This document shows, one piece after another, positions 10,122 through 18,796 of a DNA stretch of 36,649 nucleotides. The notes beneath the pieces were generated by a model. It was not told the origin of the DNA. It worked only from the letters and a program-made list of their open reading frames with translations, and made no database searches. The translations under genes were made by a program, and so were the position numbers. The stretch lies in the NCBI GenBank assembly GCA_944325215.1, contig CALUZC010000024.1:1-36649 (forward strand), in the 5' to 3' direction. How positions within the stretch are numbered: position 1 is the stretch's first letter; the number at the start of each line of letters is the position of its first letter. This DNA is from an uncultured Mucispirillum sp. GTDB lineage: Bacteria > Chrysiogenota > Deferribacteres > Deferribacterales > Mucispirillaceae.

Positions 10122-11477
10122 ATGGTTAAATTGTTTTCATCTTTTATACTTATTTTTCTTTTATGTTTCTATGCATATGGTTATGAAAAAGTATATTTTG
10201 AAGATGAAGAAAATTCACTACGATATATGATAAGGGATTATAATTTTATTCGTGGTTATAATCAGCTTTGGCAGGCTGCATGCGAAAGCACCAATATATC
10301 TTTATATGATGATTTTATTAATAAAGATTTCAGCCAAATACCACCTAAAAAAGCACGAGAGGAAGCAATTAATTTCATTATTAATTATCAAGTTAATATT
10401 GATTTTGGTAATAACGGTATGCTTTTAAGGTATCCACTTACCAATATTTTAGTGATACAAAATAGAGCATTATTAAAAGCAAGAAAAATATTAAATGAGC
10501 TTCCAATACATGAAAAAACTAGTTTAGTATATTTAGCAGCAGGTATTTCATATATTAAAAGTGACGGTCTTTATGAGCTTGAAAAACTGCAAAAAATATT
10601 TAAAGAATGGCTTCGGCTTGGCGGTGATGATTTTAAGCACATATCACAATCAGAAAAAGAAAATAGAAAAAAGTTTTTTACATATATTGCAAATATGGAC
10701 AGCTCTCCAGATGCAGGGGAAGAATTTATTAATATTATTGTGCAAAATTATTATAACGAACTTTTTTTTAAAAAAGGGTATTTTGATTTATTTAACACTC
10801 AAGAATATATTCCAATAGATAATAATGAAATAGCAGCAGGTAAAAATTTTGTAGAATATTATACTGATTTTATTAAGGCAGAATATATGGATATAGTAAG
10901 CCTTGAACATTTTAGGCTAAATATGGCAGGAAAAGATATAAACCATTACTTTACAGTGTGGGATTATGATAATAATTTAAAAAGAATAAGAGATAATTTT
11001 TATATTTTTCCATTTAACAAACAAACTTTTGTAATATTTACAGATGAAACAGAAGATGAATATATTTTTAGGTTAAACTATTATAATCCACGTTATATAT
11101 CTAAACCAGAATTTGCAGAGGTTATAGTATCAAAAAAAGATAATAATGTTAAAAGCCGTCAATTATGGTCATATCAACACGCAAGGGGCAGGGTAGTAAG
11201 TCCGTTAACTGCTGATCCGTCATTTGTATGCAGCAGCAATATTGACGACAGGAAGCTTATAATATGTGAAAGTTTTATATTACGAATGCTTGATAAAATA
11301 AGTAGCAGAAAATATTATACATTATATTCCAGTGTAAAAAATAGACCTAAATTAAAGTATAACCTTAATAAAATCCACACTACTTTTAAAGATGAGATAG
11401 CAGGCTGCAATGTTGATAAAGATTGTATGCAGCAGGCTTATGAAAAATATTTAGATGCTATGATAAAAGAGTTTTAA
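10122..11477 (+). CDS. Secreted protein of unknown function
   Basis: I do not recognise this 451-residue protein. It begins with a signal peptide (MVKLFSSFILIFLLCFYAYG, probable cleavage around residue 20), so it is exported. The rest is mixed alpha/beta and rich in Tyr, Asn and Asp. Its last 30 residues contain CNVDKDCMQQAYEKYLDAM. This resembles the Cys-x(n)-Cys-helix pattern of LprI-like (DUF1311) proteins, but the match is weak. I chose the ATG at 10122, just after the yjbQ stop; an upstream TTG would overlap yjbQ. Its 3' end overlaps that of the convergent btuC by 4 bases. It is the last gene of the pncA operon run. Confidence 0.7.
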   Translation: MVKLFSSFILIFLLCFYAYGYEKVYFEDEENSLRYMIRDYNFIRGYNQLWQAACESTNISLYDDFINKDFSQIPPKKAREEAINFIINYQVNIDFGNNGMLLRYPLTNILVIQNRALLKARKILNELPIHEKTSLVYLAAGISYIKSDGLYELEKLQKIFKEWLRLGGDDFKHISQSEKENRKKFFTYIANMDSSPDAGEEFINIIVQNYYNELFFKKGYFDLFNTQEYIPIDNNEIAAGKNFVEYYTDFIKAEYMDIVSLEHFRLNMAGKDINHYFTVWDYDNNLKRIRDNFYIFPFNKQTFVIFTDETEDEYIFRLNYYNPRYISKPEFAEVIVSKKDNNVKSRQLWSYQHARGRVVSPLTADPSFVCSSNIDDRKLIICESFILRMLDKISSRKYYTLYSSVKNRPKLKYNLNKIHTTFKDEIAGCNVDKDCMQQAYEKYLDAMIKEF

Positions 11478-12451
11478 ATTTTACCACCTTTTATTATTAG
11501 AAAAATAAAAAATGGAGCACCAAGAAGTGATGTAATAATAGCAACGGGCAGTTCAATTGGTGCTATAATAATTCTTGCAAAAGTATCACACATTACTAAA
11601 AAAGCACCACCTGCAAAAAATGTGGCAGGTATTAATATTTTATTTATACTGCTTATTGTTATTCTAATAATATGGGGTATCATCATGCCTACAAAACCAA
11701 TAGGGCCAGCTGCAGATGTTATTATAGCTATGGCAAATGATACTGTAAAATATAATATAGTGATAGTTCTTGTAACGTTTACACCTCTGCTGTGGGCAAT
11801 ATTGGAGCCTGTTGCTAAAATATCTAACTCTTTATGAAATGAATAAACGGTTATAAAAAATATTAATGATACAGGTAAAATAAAGAATATGTTATCAATA
11901 GTTATATTTGATGTTGAGCCTATCATATACCTTGTTATTTTATAATTTGATGCAGGGTCTGCAAAATACTGTAAAAACATAATTAATGCCGATGAAAAAA
12001 AGTTTATAGCAACGCCTGCTAAAAGTAAAGTATTGCTATATATTTTACCTGTAAAAGAAGCTATGCTGTATACAAGTAAAATAGATAACACTCCACCAGC
12101 CATAGCAAAAAATGAGCTGCCTAAAAAAGCTATTGTGACTGAATATGTGCCAGAAACTATAAATAATGCTGCCCCTAGAGATGCTCCACTTGCTACACCT
12201 AATGTATATGGAGTAGCAATAGGATTTTTAAAAACAGACTGGAAAACAAGCCCGCTTAAAGCCAAAATACTACCAGTTAAAAAACCAGCTATTACTCTTG
12301 GCAGACGTGAGCCAAAAAATACGTAATTATCTATCATTTCTTTATTTAATATATTGCCATAATCCAGTTTATGCCAGCCTATAAAAGGTGATAAGCATAT
12401 AATTATAAAACTTATAAAAAATAATAAAAAAAGTTTTGCTTTACTGCTCAT
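11474..12451 (-). CDS. btuC: Cobalamin ABC importer, permease (BtuC-like, FecCD family)
   Basis: This is the inner-membrane permease of a type II ABC importer for vitamin B12 (or a related corrinoid). The 325-residue protein is very hydrophobic, with eight to ten helices. It has the FecCD hallmarks GSILALSGLVFQSVFKNPIA followed by TPYTLGVASGASLGA near residue 80, and AAGPIGFVGMMIPHIIR in the coupling region near 240. FecCD proteins also serve siderophores and haem; the cobalamin assignment rests on the riboswitch and btuB in the same operon. Its start overlaps the ATPase stop by 4 bases. Confidence 0.85.
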   Translation of the reverse strand: MSSKAKLFLLFFISFIIICLSPFIGWHKLDYGNILNKEMIDNYVFFGSRLPRVIAGFLTGSILALSGLVFQSVFKNPIATPYTLGVASGASLGAALFIVSGTYSVTIAFLGSSFFAMAGGVLSILLVYSIASFTGKIYSNTLLLAGVAINFFSSALIMFLQYFADPASNYKITRYMIGSTSNITIDNIFFILPVSLIFFITVYSFHKELDILATGSNIAHSRGVNVTRTITILYFTVSFAIAIITSAAGPIGFVGMMIPHIIRITISSINKILIPATFFAGGAFLVMCDTFARIIIAPIELPVAIITSLLGAPFFIFLIIKGGKI

Positions 12452-13212
12452 TTTGGAATTATAACCTCTTTATTATCATATTTTATATACGAAAATTCCA
12501 TATTAAAAAGAGAATCAAATATTTTTTTTTCAAACATTTCACTATGGGGTAAAAATGCATGAAGTCTGCCTTCTTTTATACATAAAAATTTTGATTTTGC
12601 TTCCAGGCTGTAATTTAAATCATGAGTTACAGATATGATAGTATATTTTTTTTCTGTATTTAGTTTTATTAAAAGGTTATTAATATCATACTTTGTTTTT
12701 GGGTCTAAATTTGATGAAACTTCATCAAAAATTATAAATTCTGCTTCCTGAGCTAATGCTGCTGCAATAGAAACACGTTGTTTTTCTCCACCACTTAATG
12801 ATGAAATATGTCTGTTTTTTAAGTGGTATATATCTGTTAATGTCATGTAGTATGTAATTTTATCCATTTGCTCTTTATCTATTGTGCCAAAATAGTCAAG
12901 ATAAGGGTATCGTCCTGTGGAAACAAATTCTTCCACTGTTAAATCTGCCACAGTAAAATTATATTCCTGGGGCACAAAACTAATTAACTTTGCCCTGTCT
13001 TTTTTATTATATTCTTTTATTTTTTTATTATATAAATAAACACTGCCACTATCTGCTTTTAATATATCCATTATTATATTTACTAATGTAGATTTTCCTG
13101 CACCATTAGGTCCAATTACTGATATCATTTCACCATGTTCTATTTGGAAACTTATATTATCTATTATTTTGTGGTTTTTTATACTGTATGTTATATTTTC
13201 TACTTTAATCAT
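12448..13212 (-). CDS. btuD: Cobalamin ABC importer, ATPase (BtuD-like)
   Basis: This is the ATP-hydrolysing subunit that drives the BtuC channel from the cytoplasm. The 254-residue protein has the complete set of ABC motifs: Walker A GPNGAGKST (34-42), Q-loop SFVPQEY, signature LSGGEKQRVSIAAALAQ, Walker B FIIFDEVSSNLDP, and H-loop SVTHD. It overlaps the binding-protein gene by 8 bases and the permease gene by 4, so all three are translated as one block. The FecE/BtuD/HmuV group cannot be told apart by sequence alone; the operon's riboswitch points to cobalamin. Confidence 0.87.
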   Translation of the reverse strand: MIKVENITYSIKNHKIIDNISFQIEHGEMISVIGPNGAGKSTLVNIIMDILKADSGSVYLYNKKIKEYNKKDRAKLISFVPQEYNFTVADLTVEEFVSTGRYPYLDYFGTIDKEQMDKITYYMTLTDIYHLKNRHISSLSGGEKQRVSIAAALAQEAEFIIFDEVSSNLDPKTKYDINNLLIKLNTEKKYTIISVTHDLNYSLEAKSKFLCIKEGRLHAFLPHSEMFEKKIFDSLFNMEFSYIKYDNKEVIIPK

Positions 13213-14092
13213 TATTTACCTTTATGTATTCATTAGCAAATTTTTCAATAATTTTATCAATTCTAGGTCCTGGTAAACTTAAGTATGTATCATTTAAAAT
13301 AATAATCTTATTATTTTTTTCAGCATATAATGGTATATCTTTCCAGTCATTATAAGCATAAGTAGTATCTCTGCCATGAAACATATCAAAAATTACATAA
13401 GGGTTAGATGATATTATACTTTCTATAGATACTTCTGTATATGGCATATAATCTTTATACGGATTTTCTAAATTTAATATATTTAATATATCATTATAAA
13501 TATTATTTCCACCTGCAATAGTCAAAGATGTAACTTTTGAACCATAATTTCTAAATATGGATACTACAGCTTTATGTTTTTTTCCTTTTTTAATACTTGC
13601 TTTTACTTTATTTATGTTATTTTCTATTTCTTTTTTACGTTTATCTGCCTTTTCTTCTATATGAAATGCTTTTCCTAAAATATCATATGATGTTAATATT
13701 TCATCAATAGTATTATTATTTACAACAACTACTTTTATTCCCATACTTTCCAGATGAGTTTTTTGGTCTGCCATATGTTCATGAATTATGGCTGTATTAA
13801 TTTGTAATTTTGCTATCTGTTCATAATTTATATCACTAAATGTGCCTATTTTTTCTTTATTTTTTGCTTGTTCTGGGTAGTTACAGTAGGTAGTATTAGC
13901 TATAAGATATTTATCTAACCCTAAATCATAAATATATTCTGTAATACTAGGGGAAAGGCTTGCAATTCTTAAACTATCATTGTTACTTATATTATAGTTT
14001 TTTTGGCTGTATAAGATAAAAAATGCTGAAATTAACAGCACTAAAAATATAATAGCCAGTAAAAGCCCATAATTTTCTTTTATTTTTTTCAT
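13205..14092 (-). CDS. btuF: Periplasmic cobalamin-binding protein (BtuF-like)
   Basis: It captures B12 in the periplasm and delivers it to BtuCD. The 295-residue protein has the class III binding-protein fold (PF01497 type), with RIASLSPSITEYIYDLG at about 43-59 and ANTTYCNYPEQAKNKEKIG. The second motif resembles the start of BtuF-like proteins. At the N-terminus a basic tail and one long hydrophobic helix (about 9-28) are followed by polar residues, with no lipobox cysteine and no clear cleavage site. It may remain anchored in the inner membrane rather than being free. It starts 2 bases after tonB stops and overlaps btuD by 8. Confidence 0.83.
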   Translation of the reverse strand: MKKIKENYGLLLAIIFLVLLISAFFILYSQKNYNISNNDSLRIASLSPSITEYIYDLGLDKYLIANTTYCNYPEQAKNKEKIGTFSDINYEQIAKLQINTAIIHEHMADQKTHLESMGIKVVVVNNNTIDEILTSYDILGKAFHIEEKADKRKKEIENNINKVKASIKKGKKHKAVVSIFRNYGSKVTSLTIAGGNNIYNDILNILNLENPYKDYMPYTEVSIESIISSNPYVIFDMFHGRDTTYAYNDWKDIPLYAEKNNKIIILNDTYLSLPGPRIDKIIEKFANEYIKVNND

Positions 14093-14094
14093 AC

Positions 14095-14706
14095 TTATTT
14101 ATCCTTTAATGTAAATGTAATTTTTAGCTCAAAAATAGAATCAACTTTATTTCCATTTTCTATAGCTGGCTTAAATTTAGCATTTTTTACTGATTTTTCC
14201 GCCTGCTTATCAAGTTTTTTATATCCTGAAGATTTTATTATTTTGTAATTTATTAGTTTACCATTTTTATCTATATTTATTCTAAATATAACAGTTCCTT
14301 CCTCTTTATTTCTACGGGAAGATAAAGGGTAGGAAGGGCTTGGAATATAGCTTGCATATCCTTGGGTAAAGTTTGCATTTTTATTATAGCCTTCCATACC
14401 AGCTTTAGCAGATTTATTTATATTCTGCCTGTTTATTTCATGCTGTTTCTTTTTGCCTGTATCACTTTTTTCTTTTTTTTCTACCTTTTCATTTTTCGTT
14501 CTTTTAGATGATACTTTATCACTTCCTATATTATCTTTTGATGTTTGGCTTCCTCTGTTTGCTGTATGAACAGTATATATTTCTATAGATGTATAAGCAG
14601 ATGATAAAGCAGTATTATTTTTCATACTTTCATGTTTACTAAAACTATATAGTAAAACAGTATGTATCAAAATTGATATAATAAATGTAAAAGGTAGTTT
14701 ATTCAT
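14095..14706 (-). CDS. tonB: TonB-family energy transducer
   Basis: It couples the inner-membrane proton motive force (through ExbB/ExbD, not in this window) to the outer-membrane receptor. The 203-residue protein has an N-terminal membrane helix (about 4-20, FTFIISILIHTVLLYSF with the conserved Ser and His). A charged periplasmic linker rich in Lys, Glu, Ser and Asn takes the place of the usual Pro-rich one. The TonB C-terminal domain at about 115-203 has EGTVIFRINIDKNGKL, IIKSSGYKKLDKQAEKSV and AKFKPAIENG. It lies 1 base from btuB and 2 from btuF, so it is a dedicated TonB for this receptor. Confidence 0.9.
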   Translation of the reverse strand: MNKLPFTFIISILIHTVLLYSFSKHESMKNNTALSSAYTSIEIYTVHTANRGSQTSKDNIGSDKVSSKRTKNEKVEKKEKSDTGKKKQHEINRQNINKSAKAGMEGYNKNANFTQGYASYIPSPSYPLSSRRNKEEGTVIFRINIDKNGKLINYKIIKSSGYKKLDKQAEKSVKNAKFKPAIENGNKVDSIFELKITFTLKDK

Positions 14707-14707
14707 T

Positions 14708-16588
14708 TTATATTTTAGCTTTTAACCCCGCAAATATTTCTATACCTTTTGTACCATAGCCATAAATTTCTTCATAATCTTCATTGGTTAGGTTTGTGCC
14801 TTTTATATAAACTTGAATATTATCATTAATATCATAAGATATATTAGCATTTAAAAGAAAATAGTCATCATTTATATTGCTGTTTTCATATACTGTGGCA
14901 ACACTTTCTCCGCTGTATATAAATCCTATATTAATTTTTAATCTATCTATCGGTATAATATTAATATAGGTAGATACCTGATGTTCTGGGCGTCTTGCAA
15001 GTGGGTTGCCGTCAATATTAAACGTTTGCAGCCAAGTATAAGTTGCACCAAAATTAATATATTTTACAGGCTCAAATGAAATATCTGCTTCAATCCCCCT
15101 TGTATGGGTTTTTGTTTCGTTATAAAATCCTGTTTTTATGCTGTTTGTATCATCAATATAAGAGCCGTAAGCAATCATATTATTATAATAATTATCAAAC
15201 CATGAAAGCCCATATACTATTTTTCTATTTAAAAGTCCGTTGGAAAATCCAACTTCATATGCAAAACTTTCCTGCATTTTTAAACTGCTGTTGCCAAATA
15301 CAGGGTCGTATAACTGGTAAAGAGATGGTGATAATGCACCATTTCCAACAGATGCTTTTATCTGCATATCAATGGCAGTAATATCATATACAGATGATAC
15401 TCTGTAGAGTGGTACAAACTCCATATTTTCATCTTTTTGACCGCGAAAGGCTAGTATTGTAACCCAGTTATCAAAAAGGGTGATTGTGCCTTGAAGGTAG
15501 CCTGCAACATTATTTACATCTTTATTATTTTTAAGTGAGCCAGTGCGGGTAAATATTTGGTTATATTCATAATTTATGCCAGCACTTAATATAAATTCAT
15601 CAATAATATATACATTATTTTGAAAGTCTAAGTTTATAGTATGGCCGTCAAAAATATCGTTTTCATTATTTCTTATTTGAGATGATGAGCCATATATTCT
15701 ATCCTGATATGTATATGCTAAATTTATTGACGGCTCCCATATATCATTATATAGGTAACTGGTTTTAAAATAAGTGCTTACTCGCTTTGTATCCTGCATA
15801 TAGTCAGGATTATCGTTATTTGCTCCGCCCCCACTATCTAAATCACTTTTTCTATTAGTATAATCTATGTAAAATGAAGTATTTAAATTATCAACTGGGC
15901 TGCCACCTAAATATGTAGAAAAATGCCCCATTGCATCTGGGTCATTTTCAGTATTACCATATTTATAAGCAGCAGACGATACATTTTCATCGTATAAAAA
16001 TGCTGCATTTACCCTGTAATCAAACCTGTCTTTAGAACCAAAAAGAGATGCATTGCCAGTATAGTATGCACTTAATAGTGAACTTTGTAATTGAGTGTAT
16101 GCTTGAACTGGTCTATCACCGCCTTTTTTTGTAATAATATTAATAGCACCATTCATGGCAGATGTTCCAAGTGAAGCACTTACTGGTCCTTTTATTATTT
16201 CTATTTTTTCAATATTATCAACTGGTATGCTTGATAAATCAATATCACTGCTAATGCTTGATGCATCATTTACAGGGTTGCCATCTATCATAATCATAGT
16301 AGAACCACTATTACCGCCACGCATACTTAAAGATGTTAATTTACCTGATGAATTTTGGCGTATTACAATACCTGGAACGTATCTTAATACTTCATCAAAA
16401 GTAGATGGGTTGATGGCTTGGATTTGCTCTTGTGTAATTGTTGCAATACCGATACCTGCTTTTGTAGAAGCAATGGGGACAGCAAGCCCTGTTACAAAAA
16501 TTTCCTGAGTATTTTCTGTTTGAGCAAAAATACTATTAGTAAATAGTAAATTAAAAAAGATAAATAGTAGTAATGAATATTTTTTCAT
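14708..16588 (-). CDS. btuB: TonB-dependent outer-membrane cobalamin receptor
   Basis: This is an outer-membrane beta-barrel gate that imports B12 into the periplasm with energy from TonB. The 626-residue precursor has a signal peptide ending near SIFAQ, then a TonB-box-like stretch (TQEIFVTG). The plug domain (about 40-155) has EVLRYVPGIVIRQN, SMRGGNSGSTMIMIDGNPVN and IEKIEIIKGPVSASLGTSAM, and the barrel has the C-terminal strand motif YIKGTNLTNEDYEEIYGYGTKG. The final residue is not the usual aromatic. I chose the ATG at 16588, preceded by GGAGGAAGG; an in-frame ATG four codons earlier overlaps that site. The cobalamin riboswitch upstream identifies the ligand class. Confidence 0.92.
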   Translation of the reverse strand: MKKYSLLLFIFFNLLFTNSIFAQTENTQEIFVTGLAVPIASTKAGIGIATITQEQIQAINPSTFDEVLRYVPGIVIRQNSSGKLTSLSMRGGNSGSTMIMIDGNPVNDASSISSDIDLSSIPVDNIEKIEIIKGPVSASLGTSAMNGAINIITKKGGDRPVQAYTQLQSSLLSAYYTGNASLFGSKDRFDYRVNAAFLYDENVSSAAYKYGNTENDPDAMGHFSTYLGGSPVDNLNTSFYIDYTNRKSDLDSGGGANNDNPDYMQDTKRVSTYFKTSYLYNDIWEPSINLAYTYQDRIYGSSSQIRNNENDIFDGHTINLDFQNNVYIIDEFILSAGINYEYNQIFTRTGSLKNNKDVNNVAGYLQGTITLFDNWVTILAFRGQKDENMEFVPLYRVSSVYDITAIDMQIKASVGNGALSPSLYQLYDPVFGNSSLKMQESFAYEVGFSNGLLNRKIVYGLSWFDNYYNNMIAYGSYIDDTNSIKTGFYNETKTHTRGIEADISFEPVKYINFGATYTWLQTFNIDGNPLARRPEHQVSTYINIIPIDRLKINIGFIYSGESVATVYENSNINDDYFLLNANISYDINDNIQVYIKGTNLTNEDYEEIYGYGTKGIEIFAGLKAKI

Positions 16589-16624
16589 ACCTTCCTCCAT
16601 AACTCAAGTGGATACTTGGCTAAT

Positions 16625-16763
16625 ATGTTTGCAGGTCTCCTGACTAACTTTCATCTTAAAACACGCCTTCCCAAGATTATTTCTCAGTGGCATTATGTGT
16701 TTTAATCCAGATTACAGTCGCTTGAGCGGTTAGAGATTTTCACTCTATTCCCTTTTCAAACAT
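16625..16763 (-). promoter_or_regulatory. Cobalamin riboswitch controlling btuB-tonB-btuFDC
   Basis: The minus strand shows the conserved blocks of the AdoCbl-type riboswitch in order: AAAAGGGAAT, GTGAAAATC, a P5 arm ending GCGACTGTAA, GCCACTG, GGGAAGGC, GATGAAAG and CAGGAGACCTGC. P1 forms from ATGTTTG with CAAACAT (16763-16757 and 16631-16625). The L5 sequence CTCAAG (16726-16721) is exactly complementary to CTTGAG at 16608-16603. The latter stands 4 bases before the btuB Shine-Dalgarno, so an L5 pairing could hide the ribosome site when cobalamin is bound. A local hairpin CAAGT/ACTTG competes with that pairing. High B12 is expected to repress. Confidence 0.92.
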
Positions 16764-16770
16764 GAGCTAA

Positions 16771-16799
16771 AATATAGTTTATAAATTTTAAGAAATCAA
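16771..16799 (-). promoter_or_regulatory. Sigma-70-type promoter of the btuB operon
   Basis: On the minus strand TTGATT (16799-16794) and TATATT (16776-16771) are 17 bases apart, directly upstream of the riboswitch aptamer. Confidence 0.65.
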
Positions 16800-16815
16800 G
16801 TAGAAAATTTTTTTC

Positions 16816-16842
16816 TTGACAAATCTTAAAATTATTTATAGT
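16816..16842 (+). promoter_or_regulatory. Sigma-70-type promoter of the RCC1 lipoprotein gene
   Basis: TTGACA at 16816-16821 and TATAGT at 16837-16842, spacer 15 (slightly short), precede the second riboswitch. It is divergent from the btuB promoter without overlapping it. Confidence 0.5.
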
Positions 16843-16855
16843 TTTAATCATAAGA

Positions 16856-17031
16856 TATGCAAACGGAAGTGTGGTGTAAATCCACTGCTGCCCCCCGCAA
16901 CTGTAATATCGGACGAGTTCATGTATATCCACCAAAAAGTTTAGCTTAATGGGAAGGAATGAATTAGGTTGATGATTAAGCCAGGAGACGCTGCATAGTC
17001 TTAAAATATATTCTTCGGGAGGAAGACTATG
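16856..17031 (+). promoter_or_regulatory. Second cobalamin riboswitch, controlling the leader ORF and RCC1 lipoprotein
   Basis: The plus strand carries ACGGAAG, GGTGTAAATCCAC, the P5 arm GCTGCCCCCCGCAACTGTAA, GGGAAGG, then GATGATTAAG and CCAGGAGACGCTGC: all key blocks of an AdoCbl-type aptamer. P1 pairs TATGCA (16856-16861) with TGCATA (16992-16997). The expression platform is clear. P13 is CATAGTCTT (16994-17002) with AAGACTATG (17023-17031), closing a 20-base loop. That loop contains CGGGAGG (17016-17022), which can pair with L5 CCCCCCG (16891-16897) in six of seven positions. The loop sequence is itself a Shine-Dalgarno and the ATG of an 18-codon ORF lies in P13. Ligand binding should therefore shut its translation. 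Confidence 0.93.
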
Positions 17032-17085
17032 AAATCTTACACATATCATTTCTTTGATTTTAGATTTTATCAAAACTTTATTTAA
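17029..17085 (+). CDS. Aromatic-rich 18-residue leader ORF in the riboswitch expression platform
   Basis: An ATG with a strong Shine-Dalgarno (GGGAGGA, five bases away) opens an 18-codon frame, starting MKSYTYHFFDFR and ending at TAA 17083-17085. Eight of the 18 residues are Phe or Tyr. Its Shine-Dalgarno is loop L13 and its start codon is in stem P13 of the riboswitch, so this ORF, not the lipoprotein gene 44 bases further on, is what the riboswitch directly gates. It could couple translation to the downstream gene or protect the mRNA from early termination. No homologue is known to me. The RNA context supports it; the peptide itself may be irrelevant. Confidence 0.55.
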   Translation: MKSYTYHFFDFRFYQNFI

Positions 17086-17128
17086 TCAACTTTTTTTTAT
17101 TTAATTTAAAATTTTTAGGAGCAAGTTT

Positions 17129-18796
17129 ATGAAAAGACTTCGTAATATTGTGCTGCCCATTTGTGCAGTATTATTACTATCTTCTTGTGCAGAAGAAGTA
17201 AATAAAAAAGGCAATAACACACCACCACCTGTAATTAGTGAAGGTTTATCAAATGTTGCAATACTTCATGACAGCCCAAAAATAGGTACAGTTACATTTA
17301 AAGCAGCAGAGCATATACAAGGCTCATCATATGTATGGAGCATTGAAGGTGTTAATTTATCAAATAACCAAGACAGGCAGATTACAGCAGATTTTAATAC
17401 AGCAGGCTCATATCTTGTATCATTAAATGTGGACGGAATAGAGTATAAAGGTAATATAATAATACCAAATACTGAGCCATCATATGAAATAGATATGGGA
17501 AAAAGTCATACAATAATTTCAGATAAAACGCAAAAAAAATTATTTGTATATGGTGATAATTCAAAAGGTCAGCTGTGTATTGAAAAATCAATAACTTCTT
17601 TAAAAGAGCCAAGAATATTAAAATCATACACTAGTGAAATAACTTCTGTTGCTTCAGGCAATAACCATACGCTTTTTACTGACAATGCTTATATTTACGG
17701 CTGTGGAGATAACAGTTTTGGACAGCTTGGTTTAGGTTCTACTGATGTGGTTGATAATGTTGTAACTATTTCAAGTATTCCACAAATTTCAAATATACGT
17801 AGAATATTTGTTTCTTCTGGTGGTGATATGTCTGTGGCTGGTATTGAGTTTTTAGAAGCAGCTGCTCCAAAAATTTCAATTTATCACTGGGGCTATGATG
17901 ATACAAAAGAGAATAAAATTCAAAGTTCAGCCAATTTATTAACAACTAGTAACTCAAGAGATGAAGTGCTTTTTGCAACAGGAAATAATTTTTCTATTGT
18001 AAGAGCAACAAACAGTTATAATGTATTTTCTTTTGGTGTAAATGATAAATGGCAGTTAGGAAGAATACAAGGGGCAGGAACAGGCTATCCATCACAAGGT
18101 GAGGAAGAAAAAAACAGCCCAGATAATAATCCAACTTTAAATAAAACAGATATGGCTGCAGGTTATGTTTATACTCCATATGGTGAAGAAGATGACTATG
18201 TAAATTATTATCAAAATAATTATTTTGGAAAAATTGCAACAGGCGATGATTTTGTTGTATCTATTAAAAAAGAAACAAAAGCAGATTCATCTTGGACAAA
18301 AATAGAAAAATATTCTTTATATGTATGGGGTAATAATGATAAAAATCAGCTAGGCTTTAATTCTATCAGCAGCACAGTAAGCAGACCAACACCATTATTT
18401 GACGGCCTGCAAAATCAACCAATGAAAACAGACCCAAACAAAGTTAAACCAATACAAAAAGAAATGGTGGAAGTAGCAGCAGGCAGAGCAACAGGCTATG
18501 CTATTTCAAATGACGGTATTCTTTATGGCTGGGGCGATGAAAGTAAAGGTCAGCTTACAAATAATAAGCAGGCAAATATAGTAAATAATATGGTTTATGA
18601 AATATCAAATCCTACTGGGGTAACACAAGGCTATAAGAAAGTATGGGCAGGTGGCGATAGAGTTATTGCATTAGCGGGGGATAATAACTTATACACTTGG
18701 GGTGATAATACAAATGGTATTTTAGGTATAAATAATACAAATGCAGTAATCAATTCACCTGAAAAAATATTTTTTAGTTTAGCACTAGTAGAGTAA
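17129..18796 (+). CDS. RCC1-repeat beta-propeller lipoprotein under cobalamin riboswitch control
   Basis: The 555-residue protein has a lipoprotein signal (LLLSSC, Cys20). A PKD/Ig-like domain at about 35-120 has YVWSIEG and FNTAGSYLVSLNV. Seven RCC1-type motifs follow, near residues 141 (YGDNSKGQL), 189 (GDNSFGQLGLG), 251 (HWGYDDTKENK), 301 (SFGVNDKWQLG), 397 (WGNNDKNQLGF), 466 (WGDESKGQL) and 521 (WGDNTNGILG). Seven repeats imply a seven-bladed propeller. The gap between motifs four and five is about twice normal and holds an acidic, Tyr-rich insert. Its cobalamin riboswitch and divergent position to btuB suggest a corrinoid-binding surface lipoprotein, a functional counterpart of BtuG; this role is inferred. 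It has its own AGGAGC ribosome site. Confidence 0.88.
   Translation: MKRLRNIVLPICAVLLLSSCAEEVNKKGNNTPPPVISEGLSNVAILHDSPKIGTVTFKAAEHIQGSSYVWSIEGVNLSNNQDRQITADFNTAGSYLVSLNVDGIEYKGNIIIPNTEPSYEIDMGKSHTIISDKTQKKLFVYGDNSKGQLCIEKSITSLKEPRILKSYTSEITSVASGNNHTLFTDNAYIYGCGDNSFGQLGLGSTDVVDNVVTISSIPQISNIRRIFVSSGGDMSVAGIEFLEAAAPKISIYHWGYDDTKENKIQSSANLLTTSNSRDEVLFATGNNFSIVRATNSYNVFSFGVNDKWQLGRIQGAGTGYPSQGEEEKNSPDNNPTLNKTDMAAGYVYTPYGEEDDYVNYYQNNYFGKIATGDDFVVSIKKETKADSSWTKIEKYSLYVWGNNDKNQLGFNSISSTVSRPTPLFDGLQNQPMKTDPNKVKPIQKEMVEVAAGRATGYAISNDGILYGWGDESKGQLTNNKQANIVNNMVYEISNPTGVTQGYKKVWAGGDRVIALAGDNNLYTWGDNTNGILGINNTNAVINSPEKIFFSLALVE

Follow-up and report, generated by a model that had tools for sequence, protein, structure and literature searches.

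The stretch of DNA analysed here, referred to below as the window, comprises 36,649 nucleotides of an uncultured Mucispirillum (Deferribacterota; contig C24 of genome G000 in our labelling). At its centre of interest lies a divergent pair of cobalamin riboswitches, separated by 35 bases, one of which leads on the minus strand into btuB, tonB, btuF, btuD and btuC, and the other into a gene for a lipoprotein of 555 amino acids with RCC1-type motifs (Table 1). A preliminary description of this DNA had read the locus in the same way, and the assignment of the gene families, the LSS-C20 lipobox and the Rfam RF00174 matches, both of them full length and above the gathering score of 31.5, bear it out. 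The btuB riboswitch displays a clear pairing between its L5 loop and its tail (GCUCAAG with CUUGAGU); no convincing equivalent was found when this pairing was sought in the RCC1 riboswitch.

The match of the window BtuB to the E. coli BtuB structures extends over 570 residues, and its six top matches are all BtuB. The protein scores under the equivalog level of TIGR01779 / PRK10641 (190 bits vs the 599.7 needed), though TIGR01779 is its best family. The ratio of nonsynonymous to synonymous substitution rates (dN/dS) is 0.11-0.14 for btuB, and the values for the RCC1 gene indicate purifying selection that is weaker than that on btuB.

The RCC1 lipoprotein and its predicted fold

The lipoprotein is composed of a signal peptide, a lipobox, a short beta-rich N-terminal domain and seven RCC1 motifs, in that order. 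Its family is apparent from matches to PF00415 (RCC1; 107 bits against a cut-off of 21.7) and PF25390 (RCC1-like domain; 162.6 bits against a cut-off of 150), and RCC1 family matches are present in all five orthologues. The seven motifs, of the WG/YG type and located near residues 141, 192, 254, 302, 400, 468 and 524, can be aligned, in register, to a run of seven successive blades in 13 further RCC1 proteins, in agreement with the number counted previously. The PKD-like domain that had also been proposed fared less well: an N-terminal domain is indeed there, but its PKD matches are sub-threshold (PF16820 with an E value of 0.011 in the window protein, and PF00801 with 7e-4 in a relative), and we refer to it as Ig/PKD-like. 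Within this domain, the residues H47-D48-x-P50-K51 are invariant across nine aligned members of the clade delineated below.

Structure prediction, run on the protein alone, supports a seven-bladed propeller. The AlphaFold2 model of residues 113-555, calculated from 13 RCC1 segments of viral contigs together with the orthologues, reached a predicted local distance difference test score (pLDDT) of 76 and a predicted template modelling score (pTM) of 0.83; a model from the five orthologues alone, with a pLDDT of 31, was discarded. When the orthologue profile was run against viral contigs, no relative emerged. Fold comparison of the retained model places RCC1 propellers on top, with UVR8 first (Z 41, 350 residues, 2.9 Å, 22% identity), and the best match by sequence is RPGR (E 2e-24). 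BtuG, the propeller lipoprotein of Bacteroides, is not among the fold matches listed, which is no proof that the folds differ.

The preliminary description had further pointed to an oversized, acidic and tyrosine-rich insert between motifs four and five. Such an insert is present, with eight tyrosines and a net charge of -5, but it is better placed at approximately residues 312-368 than at 315-395, and its acidity is not distinctive. It is modelled at low confidence; however, a motif, [VM][YF]xP[YR][GK], is kept across both genera in which the clade occurs, and P350 and Y360 are invariant in the clade alignment.

Four more RCC1 lipoproteins are encoded in the window genome, with no cobalamin riboswitch nearby; some of these proteins have blades that are nearly identical.

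Association with btuB and the readings it permits

In a survey of 40 relatives, later extended to 51 genomes, all of one phylum, relatives of the RCC1 lipoprotein were sought, and 13 were found that form one clade with it, the window protein included. The clade occurs in eight of ten Mucispirillum genomes and in all four genomes of a sister genus, labelled g2, and in no other of the 51. Every one of the 13 (eight of Mucispirillum, a second copy in genome G007 and four of g2) is located downstream of a same-strand cobalamin riboswitch, whereas no such riboswitch was found near any RCC1 protein outside the clade, be it in the window genome or in others of this phylum. A tree built from 21 sequences, 12 of them riboswitch-linked, places these 12 together on one side of a branch (support 100/99). 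Orthologues in the four named Mucispirillum genomes each have both riboswitches, with a divergent btuB in the three loci that extend far enough, and in Mucispirillum the RCC1 gene always adjoins btuB wherever both are visible. The refuting outcome named in the preliminary description, homologues that consistently lack a riboswitch or btuB link, did not materialise in the clade, and the genetic tie to B12 uptake is firmer than could be seen from the window alone.

The arrangement is tighter still in genome G007, where a riboswitch, the RCC1 gene, btuB and tonB follow one another on a single strand of contig C40. The RCC1-btuB junction is situated mid-contig, and only the tonB end, to which a malic-enzyme fragment is fused, is near the contig end. 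The RCC1 protein and BtuB encoded here are 36% and 56-57% identical, respectively, to those of the window. Since both have diverged while the neighbouring tonB shares 95% DNA identity with the second tonB of G007, the RCC1-btuB pair looks to have been exchanged as a unit; the contig may represent the allele of a second strain in a mixed assembly. Such an exchange is expected of a matched pair, and would thus suit a shield that guards BtuB against phages or bacteriocins during B12 uptake, the BtuB of E. coli being a phage and colicin receptor. A lid on BtuB that serves uptake predicts the exchange equally, however, and we regard a shield as highly improbable.

In genome G006, of the same genus and assembled in one contig, neither btuB nor an RCC1 match was found, and the genes that flank the 7.4-kb module in the window are ~210 bp apart at the syntenic site; the whole module is missing as a block. 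CbiD, of anaerobic corrin synthesis, is kept in G006 and in eight Mucispirillum genomes altogether outside the set that lacks it (G000, G007 and G010-G014). To judge by this marker, corrin synthesis varies between close species. As G006, without the module, keeps CbiD, and the window genome, G007 and g2, with btuB and the RCC1 gene, do not have it, the RCC1 gene appears to go with uptake and not with synthesis, although one btuB-less genome is an example and not a statistic. In genome G005, an assembly that is 57% complete, btuB is represented by a fragment and the RCC1 gene is absent.

The comparative evidence makes the link of the RCC1 gene to B12 well supported, and we consider the protein to be, with odds moderately in favour, a lipid-anchored accessory of BtuB-mediated corrinoid uptake. 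Several observations weigh against this reading. A cobalamin riboswitch is by itself no proof of an uptake role, because the one further example in the window genome is upstream of the class I ribonucleotide reductase genes nrdB-nrdA (names which we take from their sequences). The RCC1 gene of g2 lies apart from btuB, behind its own weaker riboswitch (44.7-47 bits). A third genus (G011) lacks the RCC1 gene although its riboswitch-btuB-tonB-btuFDC operon is complete, and the lipoprotein is on this gene content an accessory without which BtuB can work. The second RCC1 copy of G007 has an aspartate at position +2 after the lipid cysteine, a residue that favours inner-membrane retention in E. coli, although this rule is not established for the phylum of Mucispirillum. 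Furthermore, high negative charge was considered as a ligand-attraction feature and rejected, as the net negative charge does not exceed that of the non-B12 RCC1 paralogues and the feature is not specific. Lastly, RCC1 propellers are mainly binders of proteins and less often of small molecules.

The regulation of nrdAB in the same genome would also be in keeping with an envelope protein of B12 starvation (an adhesin, or a protein of stress or surface remodelling) that has no direct part in uptake and is B12-regulated just as nrdAB is. The four paralogues without B12 control would fit this explanation, as would the distance of the g2 gene from btuB in a genus where a GLUG-motif lipoprotein is likewise riboswitch-controlled. 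Against it, the gene stands beside btuB throughout Mucispirillum wherever both are visible, once in line with it behind one riboswitch, and is absent together with it, and the tree keeps the paralogues apart from the riboswitch-linked clade; we deem this explanation unlikely.

The binding habits of RCC1 propellers bear on the ligand. Because they mostly bind proteins, direct binding of a corrinoid by the propeller is put at somewhat below an even chance. The propeller might instead recognise a B12-carrier protein, of host or bacterial origin, from which B12 would then pass to BtuB. Mucispirillum inhabits gut mucus, the solved relatives are by their structure titles protein binders (RCC1-Ran, RPGR-PDE6D, BLIP-II with beta-lactamase and UVR8-COP1), and BtuG2 of Bacteroides strips B12 from intrinsic factor (PMC6143338). 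The gene is also kept in g2, and carrier binding seems to us quite unlikely.

Leader reading frames and further riboswitch loci

The RCC1 riboswitch stops short of the start codon of the RCC1 gene. The aptamer is followed by a block, CTTCGG(G)AGG(A/G)AAG, a short leader open reading frame (ORF) of 18 codons (MKSYTYHFFDFRFYQNFI) with a strong Shine-Dalgarno sequence, an A+T-rich gap and then the RCC1 gene; the gap is ~40 nt in the window and longer elsewhere, and there is no overlap with the gene. This block recurs, with short ORFs that differ from that of the window, after the riboswitches that precede the second RCC1 copy of G007, the RCC1 genes of g2, nrdAB and the GLUG-lipoprotein genes, and was not seen behind btuB or cbi riboswitches. 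A 9-bp stem predicted over the leader start codon of the window is no stronger than those of shuffled sequences (z -1.2).

In Mycobacterium tuberculosis, leader ORFs under riboswitch control act through downstream re-initiation or Rho-dependent termination (PMC11260477, PMC12810186), and the upstream ORF of the ppe2 B12 riboswitch (PMC11260477) and the pe20 Mbox with Rho (PMC12810186) present the same succession of riboswitch, short leader ORF and structural gene. Unlike these, the leader ORF predicted here stays clear of the gene that it precedes, and it recurs at RCC1, nrdAB and GLUG genes. Because of the gap between leader ORF and RCC1 gene, we infer, by analogy, a control of the Rho type rather than re-initiation by overlap.

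A few observations on neighbouring loci may be added. By eye, the C-terminal part of the window BtuB is closer to that of L018 (5582-7474) and its N-terminal part closer to that of L017, a mosaic pattern that suggests recombination inside btuB. Where the window genome has nrdAB, the corresponding region of G006 (L068, G006:C1:1303000-1313000) contains a cobalamin riboswitch but no nrdB or nrdA match. The second riboswitch-controlled lipoprotein of g2 has GLUG motifs and no RCC1 motifs, and one of its two aptamers is below the gathering threshold. A large lipoprotein with Kelch-like repeats is encoded near the g2 RCC1 gene in three genomes.

Table 1. Features of the window and of related loci (window coordinates unless a locus is named).
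Feature	Position	Strand	Basis
Cobalamin riboswitch before btuB operon	16613..16786	-	RF00174, 90.2 bits, E 3e-21, model positions 1-189 of 189
Cobalamin riboswitch before RCC1 lipoprotein gene	16822..17009	+	RF00174, 72.5 bits, E 3.6e-16, model positions 1-189 of 189; present in all orthologues
Leader ORF	17029..17085	+	Just behind aptamer; in frame in all 5 aligned orthologues
RCC1-propeller lipoprotein	17129..18796	+	Pfam RCC1 matches; orthologues 72-84% identical in four named Mucispirillum genomes; dN/dS 0.22-0.34
Lipobox L17-S18-S19-C20, lipid-anchor cysteine	17177..17188	+	Sequence; cysteine retained in relatives
N-terminal Ig/PKD-like domain, residues 22-117	17192..17479	+	Sub-threshold PKD matches; alignment
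Predicted seven-bladed RCC1 propeller, residues 118-555	17480..18793	+	Pfam, motif register, predicted model, UVR8 match
Insert between blades 4 and 5, residues 312-368	18062..18232	+	Clade alignment; low model confidence
btuB, TonB-dependent corrinoid receptor	14708..16588	-	Full-length match to E. coli BtuB structures, E 7e-29; top NCBIfam TIGR01779
tonB	14095..14706	-	PF03544, TIGR01352
btuF, periplasmic binding protein	13205..14092	-	PF01497; top NCBIfam PRK03379 BtuF; BtuF structures among matches
btuD, ATP-binding cassette ATPase	12448..13212	-	PF00005
btuC, permease	11474..12451	-	PF01032; top NCBIfam BtuC
RCC1 lipoprotein paralogues without riboswitch, window genome	L012:1415-3142, L013:4594-6246, L014:5122-6915, L015:3829-5544		
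GLUG lipoprotein genes of g2	L073:4839-6470 (riboswitch G012:C7:52791-53014); L077:700-2703		
Loci with leader ORF block	Window 17029-17085; L061, L062-L065, L016, L073, L077		

Proposed mode of action and comparison with known systems

When B12 is scarce, both riboswitches would, as is usual for their family, permit expression, so that BtuB and the RCC1 lipoprotein would be made together. The lipoprotein would be moved to the outer membrane, next to BtuB, where it would capture a corrinoid, or a corrinoid carrier, and hand it over to BtuB, after which TonB and BtuFCD would carry the corrinoid inward. The Ig/PKD-like domain may serve as a spacer between the lipid anchor and the propeller with its extra blade 4-5 loop. 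The preliminary description had proposed a candidate corrinoid-capture protein, which is plausible. In the fullest form of this proposal, the propeller would itself bind the corrinoid and cover BtuB like a lid, the blade 4-5 insert would provide the ligand or receptor loop, and Deferribacterota would have arrived independently at the solution that BtuG represents; we hold this to be a tentative possibility, with the odds slightly against it.

The protein shares its fold and sequence family with UVR8, RPGR, HERC2, RCC1 and the bacterial BLIP-II, but these are eukaryotic or secreted protein binders without a lipid anchor, and we know of no corrinoid role for any of their propellers. Were the proposal true, the RCC1 fold would acquire a role in nutrient uptake, and to our knowledge it has none so far. 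A literature search produced nothing connecting RCC1 with B12 uptake; a Leptospira paper that came up is unrelated. The results offer a small testable set, namely 13 sequences with one diverged matched receptor pair.

Among accessory lipoproteins of riboswitch-controlled btu loci, BtuH and BtuJ (DUF4465; PMC8941943, PMC13398666) are comparable, and some BtuH even possess an N-terminal PKD domain. Their folds differ, being a globular BtuH domain and a jelly-roll, respectively, and neither has an RCC1 propeller.

The closest likeness is to BtuG (DUF5074, PF16819), the seven-bladed lipoprotein lid of Bacteroides BtuB, a B12-binding protein that delivers the vitamin to its receptor (PMC10404256; PMC6143338). 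Lipid anchor, seven-bladed propeller, btuB linkage and cobalamin riboswitch are common to both. Membership of the BtuG family, which had already been doubted, can be set aside because DUF5074 is neither among the Pfam matches of the RCC1 lipoprotein (E up to 0.1) nor found in 15 Mucispirillaceae genomes, in a search whose control was positive in a Bacteroides. The RCC1 protein differs further in its additional Ig/PKD-like domain and in its phylum, and its gene is usually divergent from btuB with a riboswitch of its own. The single-strand order of G007 resembles the joint btuG-btuB operon of Bacteroides (PMC10404256). The likeness rests on architecture and regulation. BtuG has been reported in Bacteroidetes only (PMC6143338). 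If the proposal is true, another gut phylum has a propeller lipoprotein of its own that is linked to BtuB, lipoprotein-assisted B12 capture arose more than once, and it may be general in habitats where B12 is competed for. The RCC1 lipoprotein would then work in a manner similar to BtuG, from an unrelated sequence family.

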